Shown here piece after piece: positions 9,447-62,199 of a stretch of DNA of 64,000 nucleotides. Positions within the stretch are counted from its first letter, which is position 1; each line of letters starts with the position of its first letter. The stretch is taken from the NCBI RefSeq assembly GCF_035083965.1, contig NC_089722.1:42904697-42968696 (forward strand), written 5' to 3'. The notes beneath the pieces were generated by a model. The model worked only from the letters and a program-made list of their open reading frames with translations, made no database searches and had not been told where the DNA came from. Position numbers and translations under genes: made by a program. The stretch is from Branchiostoma lanceolatum (lineage: Eukaryota; Chordata; Leptocardii; Amphioxiformes; Branchiostomatidae).

Positions 9447-10648
9447 CTGTGCAATAGATGTCGGGTAGCTGAGAAATGAATCCACTTTATTTTATATCAT
9501 ACATGTATATAAATATGTTAAGTCTCCTATCACACCTTGAAACGTTAACTGAATTAAAAATAAAACAGACACAGCAACATGCAAGGAGTTTGGGTATACT
9601 TTATTGAATATACATCATTTATAAACATTAGCCATTCATGCAAAAATCCACCTCAATTTCAATCCTTCATTCTCTGATTGTTTTTCAGGAAACAAATTGA
9701 GTGAAACACTAAAAATTCCCCCTGGTACAGCTGATCAGAGATATTCTTTACAAAATGTACCAACTTCCCAGAGGAACAACATTTTCCTCCATTTCAAATT
9801 TTGTACAAAGAGAGACAGCTTGAGAGTTTCAGAGTGTTAAAAGAAAGTACAAAATATGGAAGTACAGTTTAAGGCCACGGGAACTTGTCCAAACCAAACA
9901 AGATTTGGCAACATGGCAAGTTTCAACAGAAAGAAGACTGAATCAAAACTTCAGTTAAAATATCTCAGCAAAAGACATTTAAGACTGGGTTCCAGACCAC
10001 ATCCAACTTACACTCCAGTACAAAGGTATCAAATTTGGTTTGATTGAAAAATAAATTAAAAGGGATTGTTGGGACCCTAAACTAAAAGAAACAACATTAG
10101 GCCAAAGTTCAAACTAAGCTAAGTAATTACCAAAGCAACAGTACAAGTTACACTGAGCTGACTGGAGGCTAATAGATGCATGTCTAGGTGATCTTTAATT
10201 GCAGGAAGATATGGCTTTGTTGGAATGAGGCCGATCGTTATCATATTAGTTATACTGTACTCAGGAAAAAATGAATGAGAAAAAGATTGTCCCAGATCAG
10301 TTTGGCAGTAATTACTATGTCTTCACCACAGGTGATACGCCATGTAAAACTCCCAGTTTTTAACAGAAAGACACTGGGAAGTTGTAAAACTGCATGAGTT
10401 TCAAATCTCATAACTTTTTCATATGCACAAAGCACATCGTCAGACTGAAGGACACAATCCCTTTTCCCACAACGTCTATAAAAATAGATGTCTTTGACTT
10501 GAGATTTCCCAAATTGTATCCAAACACAAAGTGACTTAAGGAGAGTTCAAACTTGTACTGATGACTGGGCTGAGTAGAGTCTGGACCTGGAAATTCTGTT
10601 GATTTAAGGAGAGTCCAGATTTAAGGCGAGTTCAGACTTAAGGAGAGT
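9447..10648. other. Non-coding stretch, likely MTFR 3' region
   Basis: No gene or clear repeat was found apart from the diverged copy of the MTFR last exon at 10560-10605. It probably includes the 3' untranslated region of the minus-strand MTFR gene. Confidence 0.35.
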
Positions 10649-10735
10649 TCAGACTTGTACTGAAGATGGGGCAGAGTGGAGTCTGGACCTGGAGGTGCTG
10701 TTGCTGCTCCTCCTCCTGTGGACCGGCTTCAGGTG
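10560..10735 (-). repeat. Tandem copies of the MTFR last exon across its stop codon
   Basis: The segment 'actgaagatggggcagagtggagtctggacctgg' at 10660-10695 (coding for the C-terminus and the TGA) recurs at about 10556-10595 as 'actgatgactgggctgagtagagtctggacctgg'. Shorter 'ttaaggagagttcagac' repeats lie between them. The copy downstream of the stop is degenerate. Confidence 0.65.
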
Positions 10736-13700
10736 CGCACGCCCAAACTGCACACATGTACAAACAAACGGTAACATGGCAATCAGAGGTGGCAAATTTC
10801 ACTGGACCCCCTTACCCATACTGTTTTTATCCTACCACAATCCCACAGACAAGCCTACTGTACTACGGGTCCCCCGAAAGTGCGAAATGGAACGAAATGG
10901 AACGAAATGGAACGAACTAAAACAACATATGTTACATTATGAAATGAAATACCAGCAGATTGCGACATATAAGGAGTAGACCGGAACAGGAAGCATTTTA
11001 AATACAGAAGTGAGTGGTAAATACATAATATAACGTGTTTTATTTCTTGAAACTATGTGATGATATTAAATACAACGTTTTTGTCGCGTTTGTGTGGCTA
11101 GATTCTTCCTTGAAAATAGAGGCGCCGCGTGCAAAGAGATCCGCCGCTCTTCCTTGTGTACCAACGATCTGCAAATGAACTGCTGCAAATAGCATGGGAA
11201 AACAAGCAAACGGAACTGAGTATCGAAGTTAGGACTAGATTATACAGTTGGTGGTAATATTGCATCTCATAATTCACCAAGAAGGCTTGAGGCAAGCGTT
11301 GTTTTATTATTCATACAGCGTGTTTGCGTGTTGCGGGACAGAACTCTTCTCTCCCAAATCAAGGTCCTATTTTAACCTCCTTGCCCAAATGGAGCCCCGC
11401 ATACAAATGAACCGCCATTGTTGCCAGCGCGACGGGACTGTGGGCGTGCTACCGACAGGTTGAATCAAACTCCGACTTTCCAGTTATTTACATACGGTTT
11501 TAGTCAATAACTAGTATATTTACCCTTGTCTATTGAAACAAGAAGATTTAATGCCATTCCTGAGGATGATAGAATTTGTCTACTGTGTAATCTACATGAA
11601 ATTGAAAATGAGGTCCATTTCCTATTTTATTGCACTTTTTACGACAGTTTACGCCAAACACTGTTCAACAAAATGTACAACAAGAGACCTGATATCATTT
11701 GGGAAAGAGATGAAACAAAACTTAACTGGTTATTCACGGAGGGGGTATTTGAAATAGCTTCATTCATTCAAAAGGCTTGGAGGGAACGTAAGCACTACAT
11801 CTACTCATAACAAGACAGCAACAACAACAAAAAAATACTTCAATGAAATGATTTGATCCTAATTGGCATCTAGTTTTGGCTTTGTTTGGTTTTGTCTCTA
11901 CCCTGTCATGTTCTGTTTTGACTGTTATATACTGAGTTGATATACGTGTGTTACCTTCAATAACTTTTGATTTGAATTTAATTTATGTTCATTTACCACT
12001 TGCTTCCTTGAATTGATTTGAATCATTGTACCAGGTGTGTCCCTTTTTGTGTTGCCACTATATTATGCTCATATTGTTTAGTGTCACTCATTACTGCTAT
12101 TTTTATGATTTATTTCTGATTATCATTATTTACTACTGTACCTCTTCCATTACTCAAGTTTATGTATTCTTATGTATGGTGTCTTATAAGCCCGTATTGG
12201 CTTGGCGACTTTTGTCGCAGGACACGGAAATAAAACATTCATTCATTCATTCATTCATTCATTCATTCAGTACGTAGCATATGCATATCTCCACAACAAC
12301 GATTTTTATACAACCAATTCTTCGGCTCAAAGTCAGACCGCTGTCGGGGAATGGACCCCTCCGTTAATGATATGCAAATGAAGCTCTGCGCTGCGTCACC
12401 AATTTCACACATTTCACACTCCATTCAAACACGGACGTGGAGTCCTCTGGAGACATTTCTGCTTCCCTGTTCCCGACAAAACAAAGGGAGGGTGTGAACG
12501 AGGAGGACATGTATTTCACGGTTCACACAACACGCAAACACGCTAGCTGTATACATAATAAGATAACGCTTGCCTCATGCCCTCTTGGAGATGCAATGTT
12601 ACCACCAACTTCTGTATAATCAAGGAGGTATAATCTGGTCCTTACTTCGATACTTAGTTCCGTTTGCTTGTTTTCCCCGCTATTTGCAGCAGTTCATTTG
12701 CAGATCGTTGGTACACAAGGAAGAGCGGCGGATCTCTTTGCACGCGGTGCGTCCATTTTCAAGGAAGAATCTAGTCACACAAACGCGACAAAAACGTTGT
12801 ATTTAATATTATCACATAGATTCAAGAAATAAAACACGTAAAATTATGTATTACCACTCACTTCTGTATTTAAAATGCTTCCTGTTCCGGTCTACTCCTT
12901 ATATGTCGCAATCTGCTGGTATTTCACATCATAATGTTACATATGTTGTTTTCGTTCATTCCATTTCGTTCCATGTCGTTCCATGTCGTTCCATTTCGTT
13001 CCATTTCGTTCCATTTCGCACTTTCGGGGGACCGTGTACTACAAGGATGTATGACAATGCTGCATTGTGTTTATTGGGAATCGCAGAAGCACATGCATAC
13101 ACAAACAGACAGACAACGCAAAAATGCTTCACTTGCTTGGGGCAAAATCAAAAGTTTAGTTGATACACACCTAAAACTAAGCAACGACTGGTCATCGAAG
13201 TAAAAAAACAGCATGTTTCCATGAATTTTCATCCTTGTATGATTTGCAAATGCTGCAATGACCACCCCTTAAAACTGTACAACAGTAAGTTGTCTTAACA
13301 ACATTGAACGGTAAAGTTTCCTTTAACTGGAAACATAATCTTTAATATCAAAGCTAGCAATGATGATGTACGAACCTTAGGGCTGCACCCCGCATCTGGT
13401 GATGGCCAATCGTTCTCCTTGTCCTGCAGGTCAGGTGACCCGACATGTTTCCTGTGGGCGAACTTCCTGCGTAGCGCCTGCGCGATGAGGGCGGCCGGGT
13501 CCTGGGTGTCAGCCTCCTTAGGCTTCTGTCTGACAGGGGTGCCGCCGGGGGACCTAGGAACAAGGCTAGGTGTCAGTTTGGGAGTTTTCATCACAAGGGT
13601 CAATATTGGGGTGCCGCTGGGGGACCTGGGAACAAGGCTCAGGGGTTCTCAACACAAGGTAGAGGGTCAATATGGGGGGTTCAGGGACCTACACACAAAG

Positions 13701-16700
13701 TTAAAGGTCAATATGGGGGTTCTTAAGAAAAAGCTTGAAAGTTTCCTAGGCACCTGCATACAAGGCTAGCGATCTGGCGGAGGACCCATATGGGGATTTC
13801 TGGAGAGGTATACACACGGCTGTGGGTCAACATGGGGGTTCTGAATACAAGGTCAGGGGGCTGCAGTCTTAAAGCACAATGGTTGGAAAAAACATCTGCC
13901 CGTTAACTGGAATAAATCTGTGACAAATTCAGCATCAATCTTTGGCTATATTCAAATGAATGGTAGACTATACGTTTTACAGGAAACCGACCTTTCTACG
14001 GAGCGCAGCTTGACATTGCTCATGTCCTTTAGCACGGCCATCATGTTGGGCGGTCCGCCGGGGCTGGGCATGGAGACGGGCGTGCTCACCGACGCAGACC
14101 GCTTCGACTTGTTCTGCGCAGAAGGGAAACAAATTTATTAACAGTTGTGTACATATGTACTCAAACCTGTCTACAGTGACGCTCAATTGATTTGAAGAAA
14201 ATGGTCAAAGCAGACAGGGGGTGTATAGTTTTATTATCATTTATTATTGCTTGGGTCAATGGGGAAAATTATCGAAGGGACCGACCAGCAATGGCCAGGT
14301 GGTCATCACTATAGCTAGCTTAGCTTAACTGTGTCTGATCTCAGGGCTCGAAATAGTGATGTGCACCCTTGTGCACCCAAAATTGGAGCTGTGCACCTAA
14401 TTTTTGACAGTGGGTGCACCAGTGCACCTAGATATTTTTGTACACTATATGATAACGGTTCTCTTGTACACTAGCATACAGAATATTCTTGAAATGTAAG
14501 TATCAGAAAAAGCAATATAACCCTTTGTTGTACTTGATTTATTGCTTGGTTGAAATTTGACATCTGGATAGAATTACAGACTGAAGTTCTTAATTAAGGG
14601 AGGCAGTAGTGTCAAACTTATGTTTTGCTGACATTCAACTTTATTTCATTTGGTGCACCCAAAATTTTTTCTGTGCACCTAATTTTTTTGGTTGGGTGCA
14701 CCAGTGCACCTATCTCCAAAAAAGAATTTCGAGCCCTGGATCTTGTATCTTACAAAACGGATTATACGTGCAGTCTTTTGAGGATGGCTGCTAGTTTCAA
14801 AAGCACAAAAATTACTTTAAGCAAAAATTATAGTCAGCCGAAGACAACTATTCAGTCAGAGCAGCCATCCCTCATCATACATTAAAGTGTAAACAAAAAA
14901 ATAATACATAATACAATCATAGTTTAGAAATAGACAGTTTGTATGGCCATTGAAATGGTGAAAGTAATAACATAAAGATCAATCAACAAGTTAAAAAGGC
15001 TCAACTCACCTTCCTAATAATCTCCTTGATGTTCAACACGGGTGTAGTGAGGCTGCCGGGGGGAGGGGGTGGTGGTGGTGGAGGGGGCGGCGCAGGGGGT
15101 GGACCCTGGGGGGTCATCGGGGGGTTACCAGTACCCTGCTGCACGGTGGGCATCTGTGGCTGTATCGTTGCCATGAGAGCGATCTGTGCGCGGAGTTTGT
15201 TCAGCTCGGCCTCCAGCGCGCTGATTCTCTGTAGAGCTGCGTCTTCTACTGGGGCCTGCTTCTGTAGGGGGTGGTCAAAAGGACAATGTTTGCTGAACAA
15301 GTTTTAGGTTACATAAAGCTATTCATTCTTCCAATGGTCAACACAAGAAAGAAATGTACTATAGTATAATGCATCACACTCAGAGCTCGAAGTGAATTTT
15401 AGGGATAGGTACATCAGTACCTAAAATAAAAATGTATGAGTGCACAACATAAGATTTTACTGTCAGCAAAACCTAATTGTAAACCCAACTTTTCAAGCTT
15501 GAATGAGCCCCGTGCATGTGATGGACGAATGTATATATTTCTTATCCGGAGATGTCCTTTTACTTTCAGACCTTTTCAGCTTTAGAAAAAATCTTAAGAA
15601 ACCTTCCTACCTGACTTGTAGGATTGCACGTTGCTGCAGGTTTGGCATCTAAGACGTCTTCTGCCTGCTTCGTCTTGACACAACTACTCGAGGTTCTCCT
15701 TGCTGATGCTTCTCTTCTGGACTGTCCCAACTCACAGCTGGGGTAAAAATGAGAGTTTGTAGGAAAACATACAGATTAGAAAAGGCCAAAAAAAAGCAAC
15801 AAAATACTGTAATTCTTGTTTCTTTCACTGTAACTTTTTTCACGGTCACCTCTAGATCTGTACTGTGAACTTATAATCACCGTGAAAAAACCTGTTGTTA
15901 TCATTTATTATTCCTTCACACATCCGTTCTGTAAATCACTTGCCGCCACCGTGAAGTTAAAGTTCAGTGAAAATGTAAATTTTCCTCACACCGTGATTTT
16001 GCTACCATGAAGATAAGGTTCAAATATTACAGTAGCCCCCGACAGAAGCCTCTGCTTGGAGTGAAGCACCATGGTGATACAAAACATGCTGTGTAAGTTA
16101 GTAAGTTAGTGTGTCCCACCTGATGGAGATGCCAGATTGTGCCACCTTGTGGTATGATAAATGCTGTGTATGTTAGTAAGTTAGTGTGTGTCTGACCTGA
16201 TGTAGATATGGTGGTACAGTATATGCTAGATGTATGTTAGCAGGGCTCCAGACTAACTTTTAGGCCTAGGAGCACTGTGCTCCTAACTCAAAAAAGTTAG
16301 GAGCACCAGCAAAAATCTAGGAGCACCACTACAAAAAGTTGGAAGAACAAGCAAAAGTCTTGGCTATACCAAATGATACTCCTATTGATCAATGTTAACA
16401 ACCGGGAATAAAGTATTTGAATAGATCATAAAAGATAAATTGATGGTGCAGAACAATTGGCAATTCAATTCATTCAATACCTTCCTACATACTGATACTA
16501 GTATGATGGATTTTTAGAAACATTCGGCATAGGTTCCCCGGCTGGCCCCTATCCGGGGGCCACGGTGCCTCAAGTTCAACAAGTTGAAAAATACACAATG
16601 GTATTTTTTACTTGGAACAAGGCAGGTAATGATTCACATAACCTTGAATGATAAATAAATAGATGACTCTAGAAGTTATCTATTGGGTTCATGACCAAAA

Positions 16701-18876
16701 CAAATAAAGTCATATTCCATAATTTGAAACTTCACTGCTGGCATCAAGTTTAACATTTTTACAGGCATTTCTTTTCTTTTTACCCTCACCCTCTGTCTAC
16801 AAATAATCCAAAATACTTTAATATCCTTAAAATTCTTGCTCAATAGTATCAAAAATGATCTGTTTGTGCTGACCCAGTCAAATATCTTCGGTTCCTTCGA
16901 AACGCGTAGTTCAAATTTCGCGCGTCAGGACCATGCGGCGCCGCCATCCAATGACAGGCTGACCGCATGGGGAAAGCTTTGTGATTCGCCGCTGTGCAGT
17001 ATAGACAGCAGCAGAATGAAAGTACATGTAGCACCATAACAAGGGGCAGGTAATGAGCTTTGAAATGATACCGGTGACAAAAGGAAAATTTGATATTTTT
17101 TTAAATAAAACTCCACTTGAATTGATTCATCAATTTTTGATCGTAAAAATCATCGCTTGAACAGGTATAAATATGACCGCAGGAAACAAGCCTTTCATTC
17201 TGCTGCGGTCTATTTTTCATAAGCATCATGGCCGCCATTGAAAACAGCGAGCGTCCGGCGAGCGCTCACTTTCATCGACAAAGTTTTGGCGTTTGAAACA
17301 TTTTACAAATCAAACAAATACACCACAAAGGAGAGAAACTTATATCCTTTATTTCAATGGGTAACTTTGCCACTAGGAACGGATAGTTTTTGTACCGCGG
17401 GTGTGGGAACATGATAGAAAATTCACCGACGATATTCGCGGTAGCATTGGAATACCTATATTTTCGGCTTACCGCTTAGTTCTTCAGGCATTATCCTGGC
17501 GCTGGTCTTAATTTTTGATTGTCGCACCGTGCGACCGTGATTTTAAATCTAGTCGCATTCTCAAAAAACTGGTCGCATACATGTTGTGTGCGAGTCGCAC
17601 TCACGAGCGCTGGTTAGTTAGTCAGTGTCCCACCTGATGTAGATGCCCGGGAGCGGCTCCTCCTGTTCCAACATGGCGACGTCGGCCAGCGACACCGGCG
17701 CCCGCCTCACACCGTCCTCGCTGAACGGGGTCCCACATCGCTGGTCCGGCTGCACCGTCTGGGGGACGAGAGAAAAAAGTTTAAAATTGTTCGAAAACTT
17801 TTCACACTGCAAGGCCACAGTCAATTATTTATCTATGTTTCTAAATTGTAAAGCGTATTTGAGTGACTACTTGGTACTCTACAGTGTCTTAGCCCTAGCC
17901 TGCTGGGTGCCATTGGATTACAACTGGGGCTCCTACAGCTACTGGTGCATCACCTAGCTACCCTGAGTGAAAGTTCCGGTAGTAATCGAATGGCATCCGG
18001 GCTATCTTAGCCTAGCCTCTATGTGAATGGCATGGCAGTCAGTGACATAGTGACATAGTGCTTTCTCCCTCTATAAACAACTTCGTAGACTAAGTTCCAA
18101 CTAGCCATCAGACACAACACAAGCAGGAGAGCAAACTTCTATAGGACTGTGGTGTGAGACCTTACCTGGAAGTAGAGCCTGTGGCGCTGGCGTTTGAGTG
18201 ACAATACTGCGGTGTGAGACCTTACCTGGAAGTACAGCCTGTGGCGCTGGGGTTTGAGTGACAATACTGTGGTGTGAGACCTTACCTGGAAGTAGAGCCT
18301 GTGGCGGTGGGGTTTGAGTGACAGGTAGGTGCCAATCAGCCGGACAATACTGCGGTGTGAGACCTTCCTCTGGGCTGACTTGGGCCACCAGCTGACCCAC
18401 AGGGTGCAGAGGTGCTGGTGGGCGACCTGGGAGGGACACAAGTCAGCAGCTTTCATAACGGTTTTCCAACAAAAAAACTACATATTGTACGTAAGAAAAA
18501 CTCATCTGTGTTGGTGAAGGCCCATATAATGCAAATTATGATCCAAGTTTCAACTTTCTTTTCGATTCGACACAAATAATGTGACAATGTCCATCAGTCT
18601 AATTTTCATCTAACGCTTCACTCAATCAGCCCTCTAAAGAAAAACTGACATCATCACTAGTACTGTCAGACAATAGACTACTAGTAGTGCTGCAGCTGTG
18701 GACTATATCCTACCAAATCTCAAAGCAGATGTTGGGAGAAGGGACTGTATTGTCACTCGTGAGGAAACTTTAGTCTTTCATAGACTAGCAAAGCTAGAGA
18801 TGATTGTTACCATCACATAGGGGATCAGGTGGTTGAGGATGTGGAGGATGAGTCGTGGTGACAGGCTGTTGTCCAT
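10649..18876 (-). CDS. MTFR1: Mitochondrial fission regulator family protein (MTFR1/MTFR2-like)
   Basis: Eight coding exons were assembled on the minus strand: 18876-18811, 18426-18286, 17758-17634, 15737-15611, 15261-15010, 14113-13992, 13553-13376 and 10747-10649. They keep phase and give 1,110 nt (369 residues plus stop); human MTFR1 is of similar length. Family signatures are RSIVRLIGTYLSL (exon 2), APVSLADVAMLEQEE (exon 3), a short coiled coil ALQRISALEAELNKLRAQI followed by an 11-proline run (exon 5), VLKDMSNVKLRSVERSPGG (exons 6-7), DPAALIAQALRRKFAHR (exon 7) and FGRAHLKP (exon 8). MTFR proteins act at mitochondria and promote fission. The last donor (GTTCGT) is weak. A 5' untranslated exon ends at 19919 (GCAAG/GTAAGG). 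Orthology to one vertebrate paralogue is not resolved. Confidence 0.8.
10867..13034. mobile_element. hAT-like non-autonomous element with long inverted ends
   Basis: An 8-bp direct duplication, tgtactac, flanks the element at 10859-10866 and 13035-13042. The ends are GGGTCCCCCGAAAGTGCG and its near reverse complement. Inverted similarity continues inward for about 450-500 bp per side (to about 11330 and from about 12520). Next to each end lie tandem aaatggaacg decamers, about three on the left and seven on the right. An 8-bp target duplication is typical of hAT (and P) elements. No transposase frame is visible. It lies in the last intron of the MTFR gene and hosts a later LINE insertion. Confidence 0.75.
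11521..12270 (+). pseudogene. 5'-truncated LINE 3' end nested in the hAT-like element
   Basis: The frame at 11526-11810 encodes the end of a non-LTR reverse transcriptase: RICLLCNLHEIENEVHFLFYC is the CxxC...H..C pattern common at LINE ORF2 termini. The 3' untranslated part ends in an (attc)n tail of about eight units at 12236-12270, a normal LINE terminus. Confidence 0.7.
13540..13860 (-). repeat. Tandem array at the MTFR exon 7 acceptor
   Basis: On the plus strand, units such as 'gtgccgccgggggacctaggaacaaggcta' recur about every 65 bp (13541, 13608, then more diverged to 13860) with 'gtcaatatggggg' between them. On the minus strand each unit repeats the intron end ccttgttcctag and the first coding bases of exon 7 (GTCCCCCGGCGGCAC). 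The copy at 13553 is the in-phase one. Confidence 0.65.
14342..14738. mobile_element. hAT-type MITE with CAGGGCTCGAAAT ends
   Basis: Inverted ends CAGGGCTCGAAAT / ATTTCGAGCCCTG bracket 397 bp. Inside are two similar blocks rich in gtgcacc (14370-14432 and 14651-14712). Flanks share gatct, so the expected 8-bp target duplication is imperfect. It lies in an MTFR intron. Confidence 0.65.
15808..16035. mobile_element. Possible MITE with TACTGTAAT ends
   Basis: The left end 'atactgtaattctt' and right end 'aaatattacagta' are inverted. The interior has repeated 'caccgtga' motifs. No target duplication was established. It lies in an MTFR intron. Confidence 0.35.
16090..16235 (-). repeat. Duplicated copies of the MTFR exon 3 donor region
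   Basis: Two copies of 'gttagtaagttagtgtg...ctgacctgatg.agat' at about 16098-16130 and 16175-16210 match the exon 3 end and donor at 17615-17645 (gttagttagtcagtgtcccacctgatgtagatgcc). The downstream copies sit 1.4 kb from the true exon because another element (16241-17612) separates them. Confidence 0.6.
16241..17612. mobile_element. Probable hAT-like insertion splitting the exon 3 repeat array
   Basis: The interval begins CAGGGCTCCAGACTAAC and ends GAGCGCTG, giving short inverted ends CAG(G/C)GCTC. Flanks both read gttag. The array of MTFR exon 3 copies is interrupted exactly here, which supports an insertion. Internal ends show different tandem motifs (aggagcacc on the left, gtcgca on the right). 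No protein is visible. Confidence 0.45.
17894..18002. mobile_element. Small hairpin MITE
   Basis: The end tgggtgccattggattac is inverted relative to gtagtaatcgaatggcatcc. A related end (gtagtaatcagatggcaccc) is at 36125-36145, so this is a dispersed family. Confidence 0.5.
18141..18350 (-). repeat. 60-bp tandem array at the MTFR exon 2 donor
   Basis: On the minus strand the end of exon 2 plus its donor (CTCTACTTCCAG/GTAAGG) is repeated with a period of exactly 60 bp. The donors fall at 18285, 18225 and 18165. The repeats stay open and in frame and encode VRSHTTVLSLKPQRHRLYFQ-type units of 20 residues. The parent exon lacks the same junction: the repeat joins its SHRSIV part directly to its SLKP part. 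Confidence 0.75.
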
Positions 18877-19290
18877 CAGTCACCAACTCCAGCGTCTGGA
18901 TACACATAAGGGGAGTTACTTTTTACGTAATGTAGTATTATGTACATTTGTCACATGGTGTACGTACTAGTACTATAAGCTAGTATCAGAATCAGCATTG
19001 ACTCACATGCATGCATAGCGACCGTGACTTGAAGAGAATATAAGAGACACTGCCTTTGCCAGTGTGAACCAAAGAGGCTACCTTTAGGCTTCAACTTCGA
19101 GAGATTTTGTTATTTATTGATTTATAAAACATCTATGTCCAGCCATGGCCTGAGTCATCACTTTTATGTATTTATCTCTCTACAAGCCTCCTCCTACTGG
19201 TTACTCTATTAAGAAATAGAGAAATAACATCTGTAGACTAGGCTGAACAGTTTGGACAAGATGAGAAACTTTCAAATAAGTTGACTTCAA

Positions 19291-19562
19291 CCATCGCGTG
19301 GCGCGTTGGATACACCCGATCCCTCGATCTCGGAAGTTAAGCAACGCGCGGTCCGGACAGTGCTTGGATGGGAGACCAACCAAGGACGTCCGGATTGCTG
19401 TAGCCTCACGAAGCTTTCCACGAAATCGTCTTCCGGGAGGGACGTAAAACGGGGGTCCCGTGCTCGAGGAGGTGCCTCGAACACGTTAAACAGCCTCATT
19501 ACCCTACACATTGGGTACCTGCCTGTGGCACTGGCTGCAAATACACCTGATATTATCATCTT
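19291..19562 (+). mobile_element. 5S rRNA-derived SINE, copy 1
   Basis: The head (19291 to about 19410) matches animal 5S rRNA: cccgatc..tcgatctcggaagttaagcaa and cttggatgggagaccaacc, ending gctgtagcct. These include the internal promoter boxes A and C. The body and tail (gtcttccgggagggacgtaaaacg ... cactggctgcaaatacacctga) are not rRNA and recur in the second copy at 54.3-54.6 kb. It lies upstream of the MTFR coding exons. Confidence 0.85.
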
Positions 19563-21146: not shown

Positions 21147-21286
21147 TAGAGCTTTGCTTTACTAGTAGTCAGATCTGCTGAAGTGGCTGGAACGTGATGA
21201 TAAATTATGTGACCCAATTCTACTGAGAAAAGTGTGAACCTTGTGTTTTCTGTATCTGTATCTTCAGGTAAACTCAGGCTTGAAGG

Positions 21287-24093
21287 ATGACGAGCACGGA
21301 GGGAAAGCTGCAGGTGGTGCAGCAGCTCCACGACATCGCTAAGCAACCGCAGGGGCACGACCTCATCACTCAGGTATGGGGGTCATGCTGGCATGTTATT
21401 ATAGCCTGAGTACTAGTAGTACCTGCCTTTTTAGCTTCCTTCCGCTACCCAAGCTCCGCTACCGGCCGGCTCAACCACTTGCTCAATCTTTTCGCTTGCT
21501 AACTATGGAGGATGGTACCCAGGCTGCTAAAGGAAGCCTAAACTAGATTTTGTGAAGCATACTGCAGTACCGGTATGTTAAATATACCCAAAAAGTCCAG
21601 TTCTTACTTGTTCTTACTACTTTTACACATTGGGTACCTGCCTGTGGCACTGGCTGCAAATACACCTGATATTATTTTACATTAGTCCATCATACAAAGT
21701 GATAACCACTATGATATCATCCCCATGCCCCTCCCCCCAGGACCCCAGCCTGCTCTCGGGCCTGGTTCTGTTCCTGGACATCCAGCAGCACGAGGAGCCG
21801 GTGGTCTGCGCAAGTCTGCAGGTTCTTGAGCTGCTGGCCCACAAACCCTCCTGCCGTCCCATCATGCACCAGCAGCTGGGGATGAAGGAGTCTCTGCAGC
21901 ACATCTGCAGCAGGTGGGTCAAATGTCGGGTGTGATATCGTCAGGTGTCTTAGGGTTCAGTCAGGTGTCTTAAACTAACTACTGAGGTGCAGTCTGGTGT
22001 CTAAAGGTCTAGTCTATAGTCAGATCAGATGTAGTGTGTTGTCTTAACTGGCTTAGTTAAGGTGCTGTCAGGTGTGTAACGATATAGTTTGGTTCAAGGT
22101 GCAGTCTGGTGTATTTATCTATACCCTATCTTGACTGACAGTGGCATTCTAACTAAGATGTGGCATTAAATTTGAACTATTGATGATTCCCAGTGTTTTC
22201 TGGTCACTGTACTAGTACATTGCTGCTACCTGTACACAGACACTGGTAAGTTGCATGTGCACCATTCCTACTTACCCTACATGTCCATGTATGTGCAGGG
22301 ACACATGTACAGCAGCCCAGGCCACAGCCCAGTCTGTGTTACAGTTACTGTGTACAGAGCTGCCTCCTGTACACAGACACTGGTACTGCACCATTCTAAC
22401 TTTACCCCATGTACATGTATCACTCACAGTATCAGGGGCACAGCTGCCCAGGCCTCTGCCCAGTCCGTGTTCCAGCTCCTCTACAAAGCCGAACAGAAGT
22501 CTAAAACTCCAGGCTCCGGACTGAAGGACACCTACAACTCCACACGCTCCTCCAACAGTAACAACATCCGCAAGAAAGTCTGCTTCCTGGGCGCAGCTAA
22601 CAAAAAATCCAAGACGATCACCCTGCAGATCAAAGGCCTTACTGATCAGGTCAGTCCTGGTTGTCCACTAAATTGTTTGAGGATGACATCTAAAAGTATT
22701 ATGTTTGTGTCTCCTCTCATAATATGGTATGAAATGGAGACAGTTTTTTGTAGCACCAGAATAGTTTTGTACCAAAGATGTGAAGAAATAGGTACAAATG
22801 TACATTGATGTAAGGTTTTTTTGTTTACAAATTGATGACATAAAAAATTAATATTTGACTGTTACTTTAGATATAGAAAGACAGCAAAACAAGCATATTT
22901 AAATGAAAAAGTTTAGACAAATTTGCCCAGACTTAGCTCATCGTTGTTTTGTGTTTTTTCACCAGCATCGACGCGAACTCTGCGTGAGCCAACTACTCAA
23001 GGTCAAAGGGGTCATCAGTTTCACCTTCAACATGCCGCTCAAGAGATGCATCCTGCGGGCACGTCCAGATCTCAAGGCAGAGGTAAGGCCACAGTTGCCT
23101 AGCAACAAGTGAAGCAGAAGTAGGGAAACTGTTGCTAGGCAACAAGACAGAGGTAAGGAAAATGTTGCCTAGCAACAAGTGGGCCAGAGGTAAGAAACTG
23201 TTGCCTAGTAACAAGTAAGGCAGAGTTAAGGAGACAGTTGCCGAGCAACAAGTAAGGCAGAGGTAAGGAAACAGTTGCCTAGCAACAAGTAAGGTTGGGG
23301 TACGTAAATAGAGCAAGAAGCCTAGCAACTAGAACTAGAAGTTAGGTGCAGATGTATTTTTATTTTGTAGTGAGCTGTTGCCTGTAAAACTAGAGTGGTT
23401 GTAAGAGCCATTAAGGTACAGCCGGAGATTGTTGGGCCAACAATCTCCTGCTGTACCTTAATGGCTCTTACATTGCTTGCGTAGTCCAGTGGTTAGCGAT
23501 CTTGCCTTTGGAACTAGAAGCCCCGGGTTCGATCCCGGCTGTGTCGCTCACCCGACATGCACGCTACCGGAAAGGGTTGCAGTCCTTAGGACGGGACGTT
23601 AAGCCGTGGTCCACTGTGCATTGTGCTTTTCTATAAAAGAGCTAGGGAATTTCCCCGGTACAATGAACCTGTAAATACTGTACATAGCGTCTGTCGTCTC
23701 TGTCACGACCAGTGGAAGATTAGCTCATTTGTTCTTTGAGTTCATTTGAGCTAAACTGGTTCGAGACCGCTTTCCTTTCCTTTCTTACAACCACTCTGAT
23801 CCCCCCTGTAGAGCCTCGTGGCGACGGTGAACCAGACAGGCGTGATGAGCGCCCAGCAGGTGGTGCGGAACGACCAGGGGGAGGAGGTCCTGCTGTCGTT
23901 CGGGGCGCACCCCGCCGACGCCAACAAGGAGAACGCCGCGCTGCCGGAGTACCTCCCCGAGGAGGACAGTCCCGTCAAGTCCGACGGCTTCACCCTCGCC
24001 AGGTCGGGTCACGACGCCAAGGGCGGCGGCGGCTGGCTCAGTTCCGCCGCCGGCGCCGCGGTTAGCTACCTGTCCAAGTCATTCTACTGGTGA
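21287..24093 (+). CDS. ARMC1: Armadillo repeat-containing protein 1
   Basis: Five coding exons were assembled: 21287-21373, 21741-21913, 22430-22649, 22966-23082 and 23812-24093. They keep phase and give 879 nt, 292 residues; human ARMC1 is about 282. Exons 1-3 cover the armadillo-like half ([35 protein letters not shown] in part). The later exons give the small HMA-like domain ([19 protein letters not shown]) and the conserved tail ([25 protein letters not shown]). ARMC1 is a mitochondria-associated protein that affects mitochondrial distribution and is reported to work with MTFR-family proteins. A 5' untranslated exon ends at 20326. A polyadenylation signal aataaa lies near 25119. Confidence 0.9.
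21624..21676 (+). mobile_element. Fragment of the 5S-SINE tail
   Basis: The stretch 'tacacattgggtacctgcctgtggcactggctgcaaatacacctgatatt' is the same 3' tail as in the 5S-derived SINEs at 19.5 and 54.3 kb, without the 5S head. It lies in an ARMC1 intron. Confidence 0.7.
22231..22505 (+). repeat. Duplicated acceptor and exon start of ARMC1 exon 3
   Basis: A unit of about 139 bp occurs twice: 22231-22369 and 22370-22505. Both begin with cctgtacacagacactggta and both contain an intron end plus the same coding start (GCAGCCCAGGC...CAGTC.GTGTT). The first acceptor (22298) joined to exon 2 shifts the frame because it lies 131 nt from the second. The second (22429) keeps it, so the upstream copy is a decoy. 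Confidence 0.75.
23077..23305 (+). repeat. Tandem array from the ARMC1 exon 4 donor
   Basis: About six units of 34-38 bp repeat the exon end and donor (ggcagag/gtaagg) followed by 'caacagttgcctagcaacaag'. Each carries gttgcctagcaac, a near-perfect RFX X-box-like palindrome. Only the first donor follows the coding exon. Confidence 0.75.
23392..23797. repeat. Long perfect palindrome interrupted by a SINE
   Basis: The left arm 23392-23435 (agagtggttgtaagagcc ... gattgttgg) is mirrored by 23437-23471. The mirror continues after the SINE at 23783-23797 (tcttacaaccactct). Removing the SINE restores an almost perfect inverted repeat of about 45 bp per arm with a one-base centre. Confidence 0.75.
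23472..23782 (+). mobile_element. tRNA-derived SINE in ARMC1 intron
   Basis: The head (about 23474-23550) has Pol III boxes: A box tagtccagtggttag and B box ggttcgatcccgg. A 230-bp body follows (ggacgttaagccgtggtcc, aatttccccggtacaatgaac, ctctgtcacgaccagtgg). A tcttac target duplication is at 23466-23471 and 23783-23788. A body-only relative lies at 37.7 kb. Confidence 0.8.
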
Positions 24094-24420
24094 TGAACCG
24101 GGCTGGGCCAATCCATCCGAATTACGTGTTTCTCAGACACTTTATAAGTAGTACCTGTCTAAGTCTTATACCGGTGATAAGAGACTAGTTACTTTCTTCA
24201 ACTGGGCTTGGGCCGATTCAAATGAATAATATGTTTCTTAGACAACTTAAGCTACCTGTCAAAGTCATTCTACTGGTGATAAACTGGCTGGGCCAATCAA
24301 TGTTAATTATGTGTTTCTCAGACACTTTAGGTTAGCTACCTGTCCAAGTCGTTCTACTGGTGATGAAGTGAACTGGGGCCGATTCAGATGAATTTTGTGT
24401 TTCTTTAGTTACCTTAGATA
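24061..24420 (+). repeat. Tandem copies of the ARMC1 stop-codon region
   Basis: The coding end 'agctacctgtccaagtcattctactggtgatgaa' (SYLSKSFYW stop) recurs about four times, at 24063, 24150 (diverged), 24250 and 24334. The following 'ctgggccaatc...tgtgtttctcagacac' spacer recurs as well. The duplicated copies lie in the 3' untranslated region. Confidence 0.75.
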
Positions 24421-25340
24421 AGGTCCTTATACTACTGTAGTTGCAGAAATGTCCACGGTGGTTTTGTGTTCATGGCTTTTACGGTGAAGTCTTTACCGCT
24501 AACTTAAAGCAAAAAGATGTTCCATTGTGTTACTGTAGTGATACTATTGTTTCAAATTCAACAAATTCAAAACCACCGCAGACACTCTATTGCCAGTAAA
24601 AAGTGGCAGTTCAGTCAGCAGTTTCCTACCTAAGGATCATTGTTATTTTGCTGAACTGGGCTTGGGTTGATCCATCTGAATTATGTGTTTCTCAACAAAA
24701 ACTTGAATGTGATGTTAGTAGTCATGAGGTGTAATGTACATGTGTAAATAAGAACTAACCTGTTTCTGAAATCACTCTAGTGAGAATCACAGAATTCTTT
24801 TTTAAACAAGAGTAGAATTACACAATTACAAACTATAGTATGAAGAAAGCAAGTCTGAGAACAAATGTATTGATTTGATGTAGCCTTAGAATGTATTGAT
24901 TTGGTTGGAGAAAACAGCATTTTTCCTGCCTTGTTGATTATAATGCTTTTGCCTCGTCTGTCTGGCAAATTTTTACCTCCTCCTGTTTCCTTGCTCCTAG
25001 TTATTTACAGTCTGTCAAGTCTTCAAATGTACAGAAAGGGAGTTTTGACTGTAATACAGGCATTTCCCAAATCAAAGTTTCTTTCCATATGCTTTGAATG
25101 ATGATAGGATTTAATGACAATAAACGTGATTGAACAATATTAATAGCAGTGTCTTCTTTGTCAAAAAAAGGAGGAAACGGATCTACAAGTAAAATTCACT
25201 TTTGTTTTATTCTTCATTGAAGTCTACATTTTTTTACACACTGACATTTAAGTCTTAACATTTTCATATACAACCAATCCAGTGTTAGTGGTCACCTTTG
25301 CATTATAAACTGGCATCAGTAGGAATTCAGTCTATACTAT
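24421..25340. other. ARMC1 3' untranslated region and short spacer
   Basis: No further gene. aataaa near 25119 is the likely ARMC1 polyadenylation signal. Blocks with caccg/cggtg (24450-24580) resemble the possible MITE at 15.8-16.0 kb. Confidence 0.4.
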
Positions 25341-25348
25341 AGTGATCA

Positions 25349-26603: not shown

Positions 26604-29600
26604 TCACAGACTGGAGCGCGTGAGCCAGTCGAAGTCCTGCTGTTTGCGCGTCGAGGTCGTTTCGATCATCACGTTGATCAGCGAGGCGCGGTCGTCTGTC
26701 GTCGCCGACTGGAGGGCGCTGCGAAGCTCCTCGTGGGTCGCCACAAAGTAGCCCTTCCCGCCAAATGCAGCCAACACCTGCAAGGGAAAGGTGTGGTTTG
26801 TTACCATGGTTACATGCACAAAGGACTGAGGAAGCAAAAATTCCAGCAAACAACAGTTAGTAAGCTGTAAGTTACCAGTATTCCTTGAAGTTTTTTGATA
26901 AGGCCCCTTTAGCAGCAAGGTAACTTAAATACAGTTCTTCAGACAGTAGCTGAGGAAGAAACTGAGTTAAAAAGTAACCAACTAACCTGAATTTCTTTCA
27001 GTCTATACAACTTAACAAAAAGCTTTTTCACAGCAACATTTATTCATGGCAACTTATACATGACAACCTCTCAATAAAGAAGTTGTTACGTTATGTTCAG
27101 CAACATCAAACTTCTATAAGTTTTCTTCACAGAACATCATCATTCCACAGGCATGTTTCTTAGTCATCAAATCTTTATGAACAACATTATTTCTCACCTG
27201 TTCATAACGAGCGTTGGGCAGGAGGGATGTAGGGGGCCTTACCTGTTCATAGCGAGCATTAGGCAGGAGGGATGTCGGGGGCCTTACCTGTTCATAGCGA
27301 GCATTAGGCAGGAGGGATGTCGGGGGCCTTACCTGTTCATAGCGAGCATTAGGCAGGAGGGATGTCGGGGGCCTTACCTGTTCATAGCGAGCGTTGGGCA
27401 GGAGGGATGTAGGGGGCCTTACCTGTTCATAGCGAGCGTTGGGCAGGAGGGATGTAGGGGGCCTTACCTGTTCATAGTGAGCATTGGGCAGGAGGGATGT
27501 AGGGGGCCTTACCTGTTCATATCGAGCATTAGGCAGGAGGGATGTAGGGGGCCTTACCTGTTCATAGCGAGCATTAGGCAGGAGGGATGTAGGGGGCCTT
27601 ACCTGTTCATAGCGAGCGTTAGGCAGGAGGGATGTCGGGGGCCTTACCTGTTCATAGCGAGCGTTAGGCAGGAGGGATGTCGGAGGGCTCATCAGAGTGA
27701 GCGGTGTCCCAGCCTGCTCCATGTGGCCCCATGTCTCCTGGGTCACTCCCTGGTAGATCCCGTTGTTGTTCACCACGATGAACAGGATCGGCAGCTTGTA
27801 CCTGCGGTGGGTTCATGTGTCATTTAAAAAGTATCTTGGATAGATTGATCGAGTTCAGACCCTTGAAAAGCCTTAGTAGCACAGAGGGCAGCAAGTTTCC
27901 TTGCTGTTTCAGTAGCAGGGTTTATTTTCAAAGGGTGGAGTTGCTCGCCCTTCTCCTAGGCACCTCCTCAAACAGGGGACCCGGGTCCATTTTACTAGGC
28001 TCTACCATCCTCCGCGGGTCGCTGGGAAAATAGTAGAAATTGGCCAAAATAGAGTCAATTGTATGAAGGGAGTCGGCTACGGAGATGGGGTCCAATATTG
28101 CAACCCAACTGCGGCTGCGAATGTTACCCTCCATAGCCAAAGTCCCCCGGCAAATGTTCTGCCTATAGCCGGCACGGTTAGTCTTGTAGAGACTACAATT
28201 TTACGTCCTTTCCAAAAGACGGTGCAACCCCAACCAAGATGTCCTGACCCTCAGGTTCAGACTTTCCACTCGGACTGTTTATGCACTTATACAATGTCCA
28301 GGACAGAACTAGTAAAAATAGCTGACTGAGATTCAAGCAAACAAACATTCTGTCCCAAAAACTTGATACTAACCACTACAAACACATTTCTACACTTTTG
28401 ACATTGTCATCCAAGACAAACACTTATTCTTTTTCTTACTTTTTGGACATTCTGGTAGACAGATAAACAAACAAACAAACAAACAAACCTGCACACAGTC
28501 TCCACCTCCATACCGGAGAAGCCAAACGCGCTGTCGCCCTCCACGCACACGACCTTTGTCCCCGGGAGGTAGTCACGTGCGTACAGGGCTGCTGCGATGG
28601 CGAACCCGAGACCGACGCCCATCGTGCCAAACGTGCCGGCGTCCAGCCGTCGCCGCGGCAGCCGGTTCAGCAGCATGGTGCGCCCGATGTCCATCGTGTT
28701 GGCGCCCTCGCTCACGAGGAGGGCGTCCGGAGGGATGGCTTCGATCACGTGCTGGAAAATCGAAACACATGAAGTTAAAGCCTGCTGGAAAGGTGCACTT
28801 AATCAGTTCATCCTAGTCCAGTCACTATATGTACAGTGTTGTTCATCCGTTGTTTTGTTGACTATGACCATCACATCATGTACAGTATGGATAGATGCTG
28901 TGTACAGAATATACAGGACCTGGTTTAACCTGATCCAGTCGACAACTAAAATGAAATGGACAGTAAAGCATGGCTTTGATATTATCCCAACCTAGTGACA
29001 AGTCAGTCGAGCAACAGCCAGGATTTGAACTCACAACCTTTTGTTCCATAGGCAGAGTTTCTTTGACACTTGACCACACACAATACAAACCTGGAAGACG
29101 GAGTAGTAGTTCATGGGGAGCGCGGTGCTCTGCGCCATCTTCTCTGTGACCTTCCTGTTGACGTCAGCCTTCTGTTTCAGGTTGACCCACCACGGCCGCT
29201 CAGCAGCAAACCTCCAGCCTCTGCACACAACAACAACAACAACACTGTTTACATCAGCCTTCTGTTTCAGGTTGACCCACCAGGGCCGCTCAGCAGCAAA
29301 CCTCCAGCCTCTGCAACAACAACAACAACAACAATGTTCACATCAGCCTTCTGTTTCAGGTTGACCCACCAGGGCCGCTCAGCAGCAAACCTCCAGCCTC
29401 TGCAACAACAACAACAACAACAATGTTTACATCAGCCTTCTGTTTCAGGTTGACCCACCAGGGCCGCTCAGCAGCAAACCTCCAGCCTCTGCAACAACAA
29501 CAACAACAACACTGTTTACATCAGCCTTCTGTTTCAGGTTGACCCACCAGGGCCGCTCAGCAGCAAACCTCCAGCCTCTGCAACAACAACAACAACAACA

Positions 29601-32600
29601 ATGTTCACATCAGCCTTCTGTTTCAGGTTGACCCACCACGGCCGCTCTGCTGCAAACCTCCAGCCTCTGCAACAACAACAACAACAATGTTCACATCAGC
29701 CTTCTGTTTCAGGTTGACCCACCAGGGCCGCTCAGCAGCAAACCTCCAGCCTCTGCAACAACAACAACAACAACACTGTTTACATCAGCCTTCTGTTTCA
29801 GGTTGACCCACCACGGCCGCTCAGCTGCAAACCTCCAGCCTCTGCAACAACAACAACAACAACAATGTTCACATCAGCCTTCTGTTTCAGGTTGACCCAC
29901 CAGGGCCGCTCAGCAGCAAACCTCCAGCCTCTGCAACAACAACAACAACAACAATGTTCACATCAGCCTTCTGTTTCAGGTTGACCCACCAGGGCCGCTC
30001 AGCAGCAAACCTCCAGCCTCTGCAACAACAACAACAACAATGTTCACATCAGCCTTCTGTTTCAGGTTGACCCACCAGGGCCGCTCAGCAGCAAACCTCC
30101 AGCCTCTGCAACAACAACAACAACAACAATGTTCACATCAGCCTTCTGTTTCAGGTTGACCCACCACGGCCGCTCTGCTGCAAACCTCCAGCCTCTGCAA
30201 CAACAACAACAACACTGTTTACATCAGCCTTCTGTTTCAGGTTGACCCACCACGGCCGCTCAGCAGCAAACCTCCAGCCTCTACAACAACAACAACAACA
30301 ACACTGTTTACATCAGCCTTCTGTTTCAGGTTGACCCACCAGGGCCGCTCTGCTGCAAACCTCCAGCCTCTGCAACAACAACAACAACAACAATGTTCAC
30401 ATCAGCCTTCTGTTTCAGGTTGACCCACCACGGCCGCTCAGCAGCAAACCTCCAGCCTCTACAACAACAACAACAACAACACTGTTTACATCAGCCTTCT
30501 GTTTCAGGTTGACCCACCAGGGCCGCTCAGCAGCAAACCTCCAGCCTCTGCAACAACAACAACAACACTGTTTACATCAGCCTTCTGTTTCAGGTTGACC
30601 CACCACGGCCGCTCAGCAGCAAACCTCCAGCCTCTACAACAACAACAACAACAACACTGTTTACATCAGCCTTCTGTTTCAGGTTGACCCACCAGGGCCG
30701 CTCAGCAGCAAACCTCCAGCCTCTGCAACAACAACAACAACAACAATGTTCACATCAGCCTTCTGTTTCAGGTTGACCCACCACGGCCGCTCTGCTGCAA
30801 ACCTCCAGCCTCTGCAACAACAACAACAACAATGTTCACATCAGCCTTCTGTTTCAGGTTGACCCACCAGGGCCGCTCAGCAGCAAACCTCCAGCCTCTG
30901 CAACAACAACAACAACAACACTGTTTACATCAGCCTTCTGTTTCAGGTTGACCCACCACGGCCGCTCAGCTGCAAACCTCCAGCCTCTGCAACAACAACA
31001 ACAACAACAATGTTCACATCAGCCTTCTGTTTCAGGTTGACCCACCAGGGCCGCTCAGCAGCAAACCTCCAGCCTCTGCAACAACAACAACAACAACACT
31101 GTTTACATCAGCCTTCTGTTTCAGGTTGACCCACCAGGGCCGCTCAGCAGCAAACCTCCAGCCTCTGCAACAACAACAACAACAATGTTCACATCAGCCT
31201 TCTGTTTCAGGTTGACCCACCAGGGCCGCTCAGCAGCAAACCTCCAGCCTCTGCAACAACAACAACAACAACAATGTTCACATCAGCCTTCTGTTTCAGG
31301 TTGACCCACCACGGCCGCTCAGCTGCAAACCTCCAGCCTCTGCAACAACAACAACAACAACACTGTTTACATCAGCCTTCTGTTTCAGGTTGACCCACCA
31401 GGGCCGCTCAGCAGCAAACCTCCAGCCTCTGCAACAACAACAACAACAACACTGTTTACATCAGCCTTCTGTTTCAGGTTGACCCACCACGGCCGCTCAG
31501 CAGCAAACCTCCAGCCTCTACAACAACAACAACAACAACACTGTTTACATCAGCCTTCTGTTTCAGGTTGACCCACCAGGGCCGCTCAGCAGCAAACCTC
31601 CAGCCTCTGCAACAACAACAACAATGTTTACATCAGCCTTCTGTTTCAGGTTGACCCACCAGGGCCGCTCAGCAGCAAACCTCCAGCCTCTGCAACAACA
31701 ACAACAACAACAATGTTCACATCAGCCTTCTGTTTCAGGTTGACCCACCACGGCCGCTCAGCTGCAAACCTCCAGCCTCTGCAACAACAACAACAACAAC
31801 AATGTTCACATCAGCCTTCTGTTTCAGGTTGACCCACCAGGGCCGCTCAGCAGCAAACCTCCAGCCTCTGCAACAACAACAACAACAACAATGTTTACAT
31901 CAGCCTTCTGTTTCAGGTTGACCCACCACGGCCGCTCTGCTGCAAACCTCCAGCCTCTGCAACAACAACAACAACAATGTTCACATCAGCCTTCTGTTTC
32001 AGGTTGACCCACCAGGGCCGCTCAGCAGCAAACCTCCAGCCTCTGCAACAACAACAACAACAACAATGTTCACATCAGCCTTCTGTTTCAGGTTGACCCA
32101 CCAGGGCCGCTCAGCAGCAAACCTCCAGCCTCTGCAACAACAACAACAACAATGTTCACATCAGCCTTCTGTTTCAGGTTGACCCACCAGGGCCGCTCAG
32201 CAGCAAACCTCCAGCCTCTGCAACAACAACAACAACAACAATGTTCACATCAGCCTTCTGTTTCAGGTTGACCCACCAGGGCCGCTCAGCAGCAAACCTC
32301 CAGCCTCTGCAACAACAACAACAACAACAATGTTTACATCAGCCTTCTGTTTCAGGTTGACCCACCACGGCCGCTCTGCTGCAAACCTCCAGCCTCTGCA
32401 ACAACAACAACAATGTTCACATCAGCCTTCTGTTTCAGGTTGACCCACCAGGGCCGCTCAGCAGCAAACCTCCAGCCTCTGCAACAACAACAACAACAAC
32501 AATGTTTACATCAGCCTTCTGTTTCAGGTTGACCCACCACGGCCGCTCTGCTGCAAACCTCCAGCCTCTGCAACAACAACAACAATGTTCACATCAGCCT

Positions 32601-39735: not shown

Positions 39736-60325
<20,590 letters not shown>

Positions 60326-61850
60326 CCTTGTGGAACCCCTGGATTCAATTAATGGAAAATTAACTTGTCTGTCAGACGTGTCTGAGTTGTCACTGGATGT
60401 AACAGCCAATACAATGTATCAACTATAAATATAGTTTTATGTTTTCTTCTTTACGTGTAAATATGTATTTCAATGGCTGTTGGGGAATCTTTGTTTGTCA
60501 AAAGAAGTGGAAAATTCAGTTGTTTTGCATAAAACTTGTTGAGGTTTACATGATATCCTTAGACCTTTGTGAACATGTCAAAGATGCACTTAGACTTAAA
60601 TTTTGTCGTCCTTTTAAATGTAAATATCAAATCATTTTGAAAACTTCTAAGAAAATCTTTAGCTGTAGTTTTGCTGTGCACAAAGGTGTGATACATTTTG
60701 CACTGATTGTGTTGAAAACCGATGGTACTCATTAAACCATTAGAAATATCTGTTTGTCTTTTGTTGTCAAAGTGTTGAGGTGATGGAAAGGGTGTATTTA
60801 CCTTCTGACTGTGAAATCACAACTGTTACAGATACCAGAAATTGTTATGTGTAAAGCCACACAAATTCATTCTTTGGTTTCTGGACCTTAAAAGATAATG
60901 CTATGACTATGATTGGAATATCAACATGAAAACAGAGTCTGATGGAAAGTCTACCTTCAAGTTGGTACACACTGTTTCAGGGAGTCAGGTGCAAATTTTT
61001 ACCCAATCCTTCTGTTTTCATGATGTCTTAATATTTTACATAAAGATGTCTGAGACCCAAGGAATTATATTGATGTCATCTAACATGAGTTGACTACTCT
61101 CAACTGTTAATACAACGAAGGTGAGTAGGAAACAACTTTTATGCTTTATTTTCATCATTTCAGAGTTACACCATAGACCTCAAATTTCACTATCACCAGT
61201 AAATACAATTTACAAATCAACTTTGTTTTTGTAACTGTCAAAAAATCTAACAGCATTTGTTGGAGATCATAGAACAGTCTCTAATAGTATATACTTACAC
61301 ATGTATGACAACATGTTGAACAAAGTCAATTGCTACAGATGCTTCCAAAGTTTGATATGGACATTGAAGAGAAACCTTTATTACTCAATCTCATTGCTTG
61401 TACACTCAGAAACGGTAAACAAAATTAAATTCTGGGCTCAAATATATACAGTACAATCTGCAGGTCATATAAACATCTGGGTCACAAAACTCCCTACATT
61501 TACTGCATAGGTAGAATTTCAATTGCTTTAGATTATATTAAGGAGTCAGTATGAAATCTCAGTAGTGGTCTTGAATGTAGTAGAAGTCTAATAAAAATAT
61601 ACTGCGTAATCAAATATATTCTGTTGAACAATGAAAAAAGTTTTAGAAAACAATAATGTACAAAAATAACCTACACCGTAGAAGTCATATTAGATAAGTG
61701 ATCATTGACAAATGCTTGCTGTTTTGATTTGCTCGCAACATTCAAGTTGATGACTTCAATTTTCAACAGACACTTAGTGACATGGAGTCTCAACATTTCC
61801 TATGGTTGAATATCTCGAAATGAACAGCTTGGTTGCTATTTCAGTTTGAT
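60326..61850. other. CFAP119 3' untranslated region and spacer
   Basis: AT-rich, with no further gene seen. A taataaaa at about 61590 is a candidate polyadenylation signal, but it is far from the stop. Confidence 0.35.
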
Positions 61851-61854
61851 GGTT

Positions 61855-62199
61855 CTGTTACTCTGCCTTTATAACTGTGACAGCCTCTATGATAGCAATG
61901 GTGTCGGTTCTGACAGTTCAGTTTTTACAAGACAGACATGAAGAATCTCTACAATTTAACGGTCAAATATCTCGTAGCAAGGAAGTTTCAGGAGCTGGTT
62001 CTGTTACTCTGCCTTTAGCGCAGCATCGATGGTCGCGTTGGTGTCGGTACTAGCTGAGCTGCCGGGTGGGTTAGGGTTGTATCTATGATAGCATTGGTAT
62101 CGGTACTGACAGTTCAACTTTTAGAAGACAGACAAAGAATCTCAACAACTTATTGGTCAAATATCTCATAACAAGGAAGTTTCCGGACCACTGGTTCTG
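61855..62199 (-). repeat. Tandem copies of the last exon's stop-codon region
   Basis: gttctgttactctgcctt(t/c)a recurs at about 61855, 61999 and 62196. It is followed each time by a version of the coding end (minus strand [15 protein letters not shown] stop) and by ggtcaaatatctc.taacaaggaagttt upstream of the next copy. Confidence 0.8.

Follow-up and report, generated by a model that had tools for sequence, protein, structure and literature searches.

Mirage minisatellites, tandem copies lying over exon-intron boundaries, are known in lancelets from Adh3 and from the globin genes BflGb6 and BflGb9, according to PMC3087553, which cites Cañestro 2002 for the work on Adh. Many of these copies carry their own AG or GT, regular splicing is reported nonetheless, and the copy number of BflGb6 varies between haplotypes (PMC3087553). 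Repeats of 60 and 108 base pairs (bp) are described at splice sites of lancelet PGBD5, where gene prediction made an extra exon from part of a repeat (PMC3902484), and mirages have been considered possibly a more general lancelet phenomenon (PMC3087553, PMC3902484). Intron gain through duplicated AG/GT proto-splice sites is proposed in the Rogers model, cited in PMC3087553.

Here we analyzed a stretch of 64,000 nucleotides from Branchiostoma lanceolatum (RefSeq assembly GCF_035083965.1, contig NC_089722.1, forward-strand positions 42,904,697 to 42,968,696; hereafter the window, with positions counted from its first letter), in which exon ends of five genes, MTFR, ARMC1, HACL1, CFAP119 and a partial last gene, lie in local duplications. 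These arrays are lancelet mirage minisatellites: in each, an exon end has been duplicated locally, and its splice signal or stop codon with it. The codon positions at which the copies differ from the functional exon end suggest that the extra copies bear the mark of protein-coding selection. Lancelet mirages at Adh3, the globins and PGBD5 were already known, and this mark is what is new; it lifts a curiosity of a few lancelet genes to a testable claim, that noncoding sequence may be kept under coding selection.

Duplicated exon ends and stop codons in the window

A first-pass annotation had placed fifteen gene-structure borders within tandem duplications, and thirteen of them were borne out. 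These are all four borders named in MTFR (exon 2 and exon 3 donors, exon 7 acceptor and stop codon), all three in ARMC1 (exon 3 acceptor, for which a gapped comparison was needed, exon 4 donor and stop codon), the exon 1, exon 5 and exon 9 donors and the exon 7 acceptor of HACL1, the exon 4 acceptor of CFAP119, and the stop codon of the last gene. The HACL1 exon 4 acceptor is marginal, and the array near the CFAP119 exon 3 acceptor does not reach it. Nine splice borders are spanned by copies that extend 5 or more bases to either side, to which the ARMC1 exon 3 acceptor can be added, and three further arrays (MTFR, ARMC1 and the last gene) span stop codons, as the annotation had also claimed. 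Three more loci end 6 to 12 bases from borders, namely the ARMC1 exon 2 donor, the CFAP119 exon 5 donor and the CFAP119 exon 8 acceptor. The arrays are listed below, with copy numbers, above all that of the 65-copy HACL1 exon 7 array, as assembled (kb, kilobases).

18146..18373, minus strand: MTFR coding exon 2 donor array, 60-bp in-frame unit, true donor at 18285/18286
16074..17644, minus strand: MTFR exon 3 donor and two intronic copies about 1.4 kb away
13536..13850, minus strand: MTFR exon 7 acceptor array, copies diverged
10533..10703, minus strand: MTFR stop codon duplication, 102 bp apart, TGA ending both copies, with 17-bp subrepeats
22189..22489, plus strand: ARMC1 coding exon 3 acceptor, two diverged copies at a spacing of 131-139 bp
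23073..23332, plus strand: ARMC1 coding exon 4 donor array, about six 37-bp copies
24060..24698, plus strand: ARMC1 stop codon array, with TGA retained in each of the three downstream copies alignable to the exon end
38261..38704, minus strand: HACL1 exon 1 donor, the last 60 exonic bp and GTAAG repeated 379 bp downstream
36473..36700, minus strand: HACL1 exon 4 acceptor array, about eight 28-bp copies, entering the exon by 2 bp only
35580..35694, minus strand: HACL1 exon 5 donor, two copies at a spacing of 70 bp
29155..34864, minus strand: HACL1 exon 7 acceptor array, 64 extra copies of 83-92 bp
27193..27706, minus strand: HACL1 exon 9 donor array, in which a 45-bp in-frame unit occurs 11 times, with a partial final copy
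40566..41273, plus strand: CFAP119 exon 4 acceptor, with a diverged copy 603 bp upstream in which the AG is AA
40246..40338, plus strand: 34-bp array near the CFAP119 exon 3 acceptor, stopping 6 bp short and not straddling it
61755..62265, minus strand: last-gene stop codon, 196-bp unit

The annotation had pointed to the amphioxus mirage minisatellites, and the comparison applies: the copies span exon-intron boundaries and have their own AG or GT, as in PMC3087553. CAG or TAG precedes the exonic part in all 64 extra HACL1 exon 7 copies and GT follows it in all 10 extra HACL1 exon 9 copies, while the CFAP119 exon 4 copy has lost its AG, so that many copies, not all, carry the signal. The host is a lancelet, judging by Branchiostoma matches to MTFR (95% identity to B. 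lanceolatum protein P0121) and HACL1 (93% identity to a protein recorded under B. floridae x B. belcheri). Compared with the Adh3 and globin mirages, the confirmed borders of the window number 13 within about 50 kb and include three stop codons, a kind of border outside the published definition; the copies here also display a codon-position bias, of which the accessible part of PMC3087553 makes no mention. The aligned stop-codon copies keep the stop (TGA in MTFR and ARMC1, TAA in the last gene). Each MTFR exon 2 unit consists of 38 exon-like bases followed by GTAAGG and further intron-like bases. Not all arrays run head to tail, the copies being distant at MTFR exon 3 (about 1.4 kb), HACL1 exon 1 (0.4 kb) and CFAP119 exon 4 (0.6 kb). 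Like the Rogers model, these arrays present duplicated exon ends with usable splice signals; unlike it, the existing border keeps its place, and no new intron is shown. Among the literature, judged by titles and the beginnings of abstracts, we recognized neither a stop-codon mirage nor a genome-wide mirage survey.

Codon-position bias and decay of the copies

Thirteen arrays were aligned in frame to the functional exon end; twelve gave differences, and the ARMC1 exon 4 array gave none. The HACL1 exon 4 and CFAP119 exon 3 arrays stood outside these counts, and only copies above the alignment threshold were included (one each for MTFR exon 7 and the last-gene stop codon, three for the ARMC1 stop codon), weaker ones being omitted. 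The counts pool arrays of unequal age from one window. The 71 distinct changes fell at third positions in 51 cases, at first positions in 11 and at second positions in 9. A wholly neutral history would predict 26.3 third-position changes. With half of it coding, the functional lineage being constrained and the copies free, the expectation would rise to 33.9 (P = 1.3e-5), assuming on our own account that non-synonymous changes pass at one tenth of the rate; with no non-synonymous change passing, it would be 35.2 (P = 5.1e-5). A coding share of 0.9 fits the third-position count, and a share of 0.7 does not (P = 0.002 to 0.014).

The bias was retained when base and CpG context were matched and 2 edge sites were dropped (49 of 69 changes at third positions versus 33.4 expected; P = 3.4e-5), when any single array was left out (P at most 6.2e-4), and in two-copy arrays alone (31 of 45 versus 21.8; P = 0.002). 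When mirage copies were compared only with one another, variants were at third positions in 15 of 21 cases, against 7.9 expected (P = 9e-4), or 10.0 under the half-coding history (P = 0.017). Those common to at least three copies were all at third positions (7/7), and the rare ones were so in 8 of 14 cases (5.3 expected; P = 0.10), a pattern that would be expected if variants arose while an ancestor of the copies was serving as the exon end and drift followed. In the last gene, the aligned stop copy differs from the exon at 7 of 66 bases, every one of them a third position. All 11 HACL1 exon 9 copies encode the same residues except for one R to H, and the HACL1 exon 7 copies differ in length mostly by multiples of three, within a GTT run.

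The exonic part of the copies was more similar than the adjacent noncoding part in 8 of the 10 arrays compared, although local alignment, by which the exonic stretches were identified, favors them, and some gap is expected even with free copies and a constrained exon. Exonic and noncoding similarities were 0.84 and 0.64 at the MTFR stop codon, 0.94 and 0.72 at MTFR exon 7, 0.83 and 0.72 at ARMC1 exon 3, 0.88 to 0.97 and 0.47 to 0.73 at the ARMC1 stop codon, 0.88 and 0.56 at HACL1 exon 1, 0.83 and 0.71 at HACL1 exon 5, 0.76 and 0.57 at CFAP119 exon 4, and 0.89 and 0.81 at the last-gene stop codon. The values of 0.56 and 0.57 are at chance level.

Six Branchiostoma MTFR orthologs were compared (P0121, P0122, P0123, P0124, P0125 and P0126). 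Five of them, P0124 being the exception, join exon 2 to exon 3 as modeled, with no extra unit. In P0124, from B. floridae, the 20-residue MTFR exon 2 unit occurs three additional times, and the junction residues VRSHTT...LYFQ are the same in its units and in the array of the window. In P0124 the initial 17 residues of exon 6 also recur, following a stretch that resembles translated intron; a search of MTFR intron 5 and exon 6 in the window for the exon 6 start returned a single occurrence and no second copy. Apparently, P0124 has a second mirage at the exon 6 start that is absent from the window, so that the exon 2 border array is common to both species and the exon 6 array is not. P0124 may be a product of gene prediction, yet even then it demonstrates that the array is present in the DNA. 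In this it resembles the PGBD5 prediction case, although constraint on the copies, addressed here, does not figure in the accessible part of PMC3902484. Gene predictors may, as a warning, build exons from mirage arrays.

In the HACL1 and MTFR copies, the genes covered by this comparison, 3 of 16 amino-acid differences are residues found in functional exons of other Branchiostoma (MTFR exon 2 Q, MTFR stop-region I and HACL1 exon 1 I), against 0.23 expected (P = 0.0017); this null is confined to single-base changes, and the V-to-I change at HACL1 exon 1 takes two, so that the expectation is somewhat low. MTFR exon 3 was omitted, and its one amino-acid difference has no match.

Origin and persistence of the border arrays

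We favor, with modest confidence, the explanation that mirage copies descend from and exchange with the functional exon end, and that borrowed constraint prolongs the border arrays. The copies would be tolerated because the normal message is restored when splicing uses the first donor or the last acceptor, or when translation ends at the first stop; we infer this tolerance because the gene models are open and the ortholog proteins lack the insertion. They would descend from a serving exon end and keep swapping sequence with it by unequal exchange or gene conversion, as suggested by the codon-position bias, the congener residues and the one array common to two species. Selection on the serving copy would in this way be lent to the array, the exonic part would decay at a lower rate than ordinary intron repeats do, keeping border arrays recognizable for longer. 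Such slower decay would supply much, perhaps not all, of an excess of arrays at borders without border-directed mutation. More tentatively, the functional exon end may itself be an interchangeable member of the array, its position setting which copy serves; with fast turnover the copies might take turns, and introns and 3' untranslated regions might store selection-tested exon ends and stops that can be swapped in, sometimes adding in-frame units. The matter bears on the clustering of repeats at gene borders and on spare exon ends that might feed new introns or protein extensions.

The annotation held that duplications straddle borders far more often than chance would allow, which is true of independent loci and not of base coverage. 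In the locus measure, each array was reduced to a single unit, whose position was varied inside its own gene with purely exonic placements excluded; a locus contained entirely in MTFR exon 5 (15059-15124) had been removed before the counts, and the straddling loci include the HACL1 exon 4 acceptor. Borders are straddled by 14 of 33 loci, where 2.7 to 4.6 would be expected (P = 2e-8 to 1.3e-5). Requiring at least 4 bases on either side left 13 of 33 (2.4 to 4.3 expected; P = 4e-8 to 3e-5), and removing the 8 loci inside two transposon-like inverted-repeat elements left 14 of 25 (3.3 to 5.7 expected; P = 3e-7 to 1.5e-4). Straddling loci numbered 5 of 5 in HACL1, 3 of 4 in ARMC1, 4 of 8 in MTFR, 1 of 12 in CFAP119 and 1 of 4 in the last gene, the signal thus coming mostly from MTFR, ARMC1 and HACL1 and little from the other two.

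Several observations weigh against descent, exchange and borrowed constraint as the explanation. Exchange was deduced indirectly, with one assembly as the sole source, and the arrays are few and come from one window. Two of them look closer to neutral: HACL1 exon 5, where third positions account for 3 of 6 changes, and CFAP119 exon 4, where they account for 5 of 8 and the acceptor AG is lost. The adjacent copy at MTFR exon 2 has equal similarity in both parts (0.95), and the order is reversed at HACL1 exon 9 (exonic 0.90, noncoding 0.94), where the neighbor is the next copy. When 72 borders were compared with intron-interior junctions for base coverage, 14 of the borders were covered, against 24% of the junctions (P at least 0.54 at every setting). 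With the 65-copy array left out, the figures were 13 of 72 and 9.9% (P = 0.07 with borders shifted, 0.14 with same-gene introns, and 0.07 to 0.46 over settings); base coverage counts border arrays mostly as intron because these arrays spread into introns. Finally, the locus counts are best fitted by a border advantage of about 5- to 8-fold, a 3-fold advantage being compatible for the larger unit size (P = 0.14) and not for the smaller (P = 0.005), and slower decay alone may fall short of the fitted value.

That fitted advantage, like the 14 straddling loci, is what border-directed mutation would produce, whereby slippage or template switching at microhomology in the donor or acceptor consensus (AGGT, GTRAG), or breaks at R-loops or composition steps, gives birth to duplications at borders. 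The annotation had suggested such a mechanism, naming GC/AT transitions, R-loops and AGGT-mediated slippage. By eye, TGAG stands both in the exon and at the donor of HACL1 exon 9, and AAGG at both places in MTFR exon 2; however, readable junctions are few and unweighed against chance, the consensus is absent at stop codons, and slower decay would give an excess as well. We consider this origin possible but rather unlikely. It is improbable, in our view, that the arrays reflect simple survivorship, in which duplications arise everywhere, exonic ones are purged, the rest are neutral, and those at borders are noticed as exons catch the eye. The base coverage of borders, not above that of introns, is consistent with it, as is the single locus among 34 in gene bodies that lies wholly inside an exon. 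Yet exonic purging, which the annotation had offered as an alternative, is not enough to yield the locus excess, since placements lying wholly within exons were kept out of that test from the start, and third-position bias is not expected of neutral copies.

Selection could also act on the copies directly if they were used, with alternative donors adding in-frame units to the protein and the arrays being coding repeats. The units of HACL1 exon 9 (45 bp) and MTFR exon 2 (60 bp) are divisible by three and open through the array, that of ARMC1 exon 4 (about 37 bp) being neither, and the MTFR unit is present in P0124. However, when the HACL1 exon 7 copies are read as acceptors in the true phase, 63 of 64 meet a stop within 45 codons, the remaining one, which adjoins the true exon, reading on through it; the bias in this array is therefore unlikely to come from translation. 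The stop-codon copies sit beyond the stop. Among proteins, as distinct from RNA, the insertion is lacking in P0001 (the HACL1 ortholog) and in five of the six MTFR proteins, P0121 included, and P0124, which has it, may be a prediction error. In a search with the HACL1 exon 9 repeat, P0001 (575 amino acids) was the sole Branchiostoma entry among the best 120 and had no evident repeat, although clusters at 90% identity may hide isoforms. Use of the HACL1 exon 9 and MTFR exon 2 copies is possible but cannot account for the remaining arrays, and as a general explanation we regard it as very improbable.

Repeat detection, gene models and neighboring features

Local duplications were detected by an ungapped diagonal scan at distances of 8 to 1500 bases, with score cut-offs set on 4 local shuffles (about 1 false pair per distance class on average, maximum 5 for a class in a single shuffle), and gapped cases were covered by adding BLAST pairs with scores of at least 20. 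As simple sequence, 331 of 600 pairs were set aside. A scan by BLAST alone was replaced, having lost close-spaced pairs such as that at HACL1 exon 5.

Spliced models of the five genes, comprising coding exons only, were built by reading the sequence and then checked by script. They have 8 coding exons in MTFR, 5 in ARMC1, 10 in HACL1, 10 in CFAP119 and 3 in the partial last gene. The introns all follow the GT-AG rule, and none of the five coding sequences is interrupted by a stop, that of the last gene being open, whose 5' part is missing, in one of three frames. Pfam matches support MTFR (mitochondrial fission regulator) and HACL1 (thiamine-pyrophosphate enzyme domains), and CFAP119 is backed by the Pfam family CLAMP and by a PDB match of one exon. 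A Pfam search with ARMC1, a tentative gene name, and with the last gene matched no family.

The two inverted-repeat elements lie in introns. The 14.3-kb element at 43456-57727 in CFAP119 intron 7 has terminal inverted repeats of about 570 nucleotides, with main pieces 96-98% complementary and 21-bp minisatellite arrays within them. The 2.2-kb element at 10868-13033 in MTFR intron 7 is bounded by long inverted ends that start in 10-bp TTCGTTCCAT-type arrays; their outer pieces are 92-95% complementary, and the complementarity is lower further in. Elsewhere in the window, an open reading frame at 1043-2680 on the minus strand encodes a leucine-rich-repeat protein and contains a 72-bp tandem repeat (2167-2500), and an open reading frame at 7882-9045 on the plus strand has a Pfam XK-related match.

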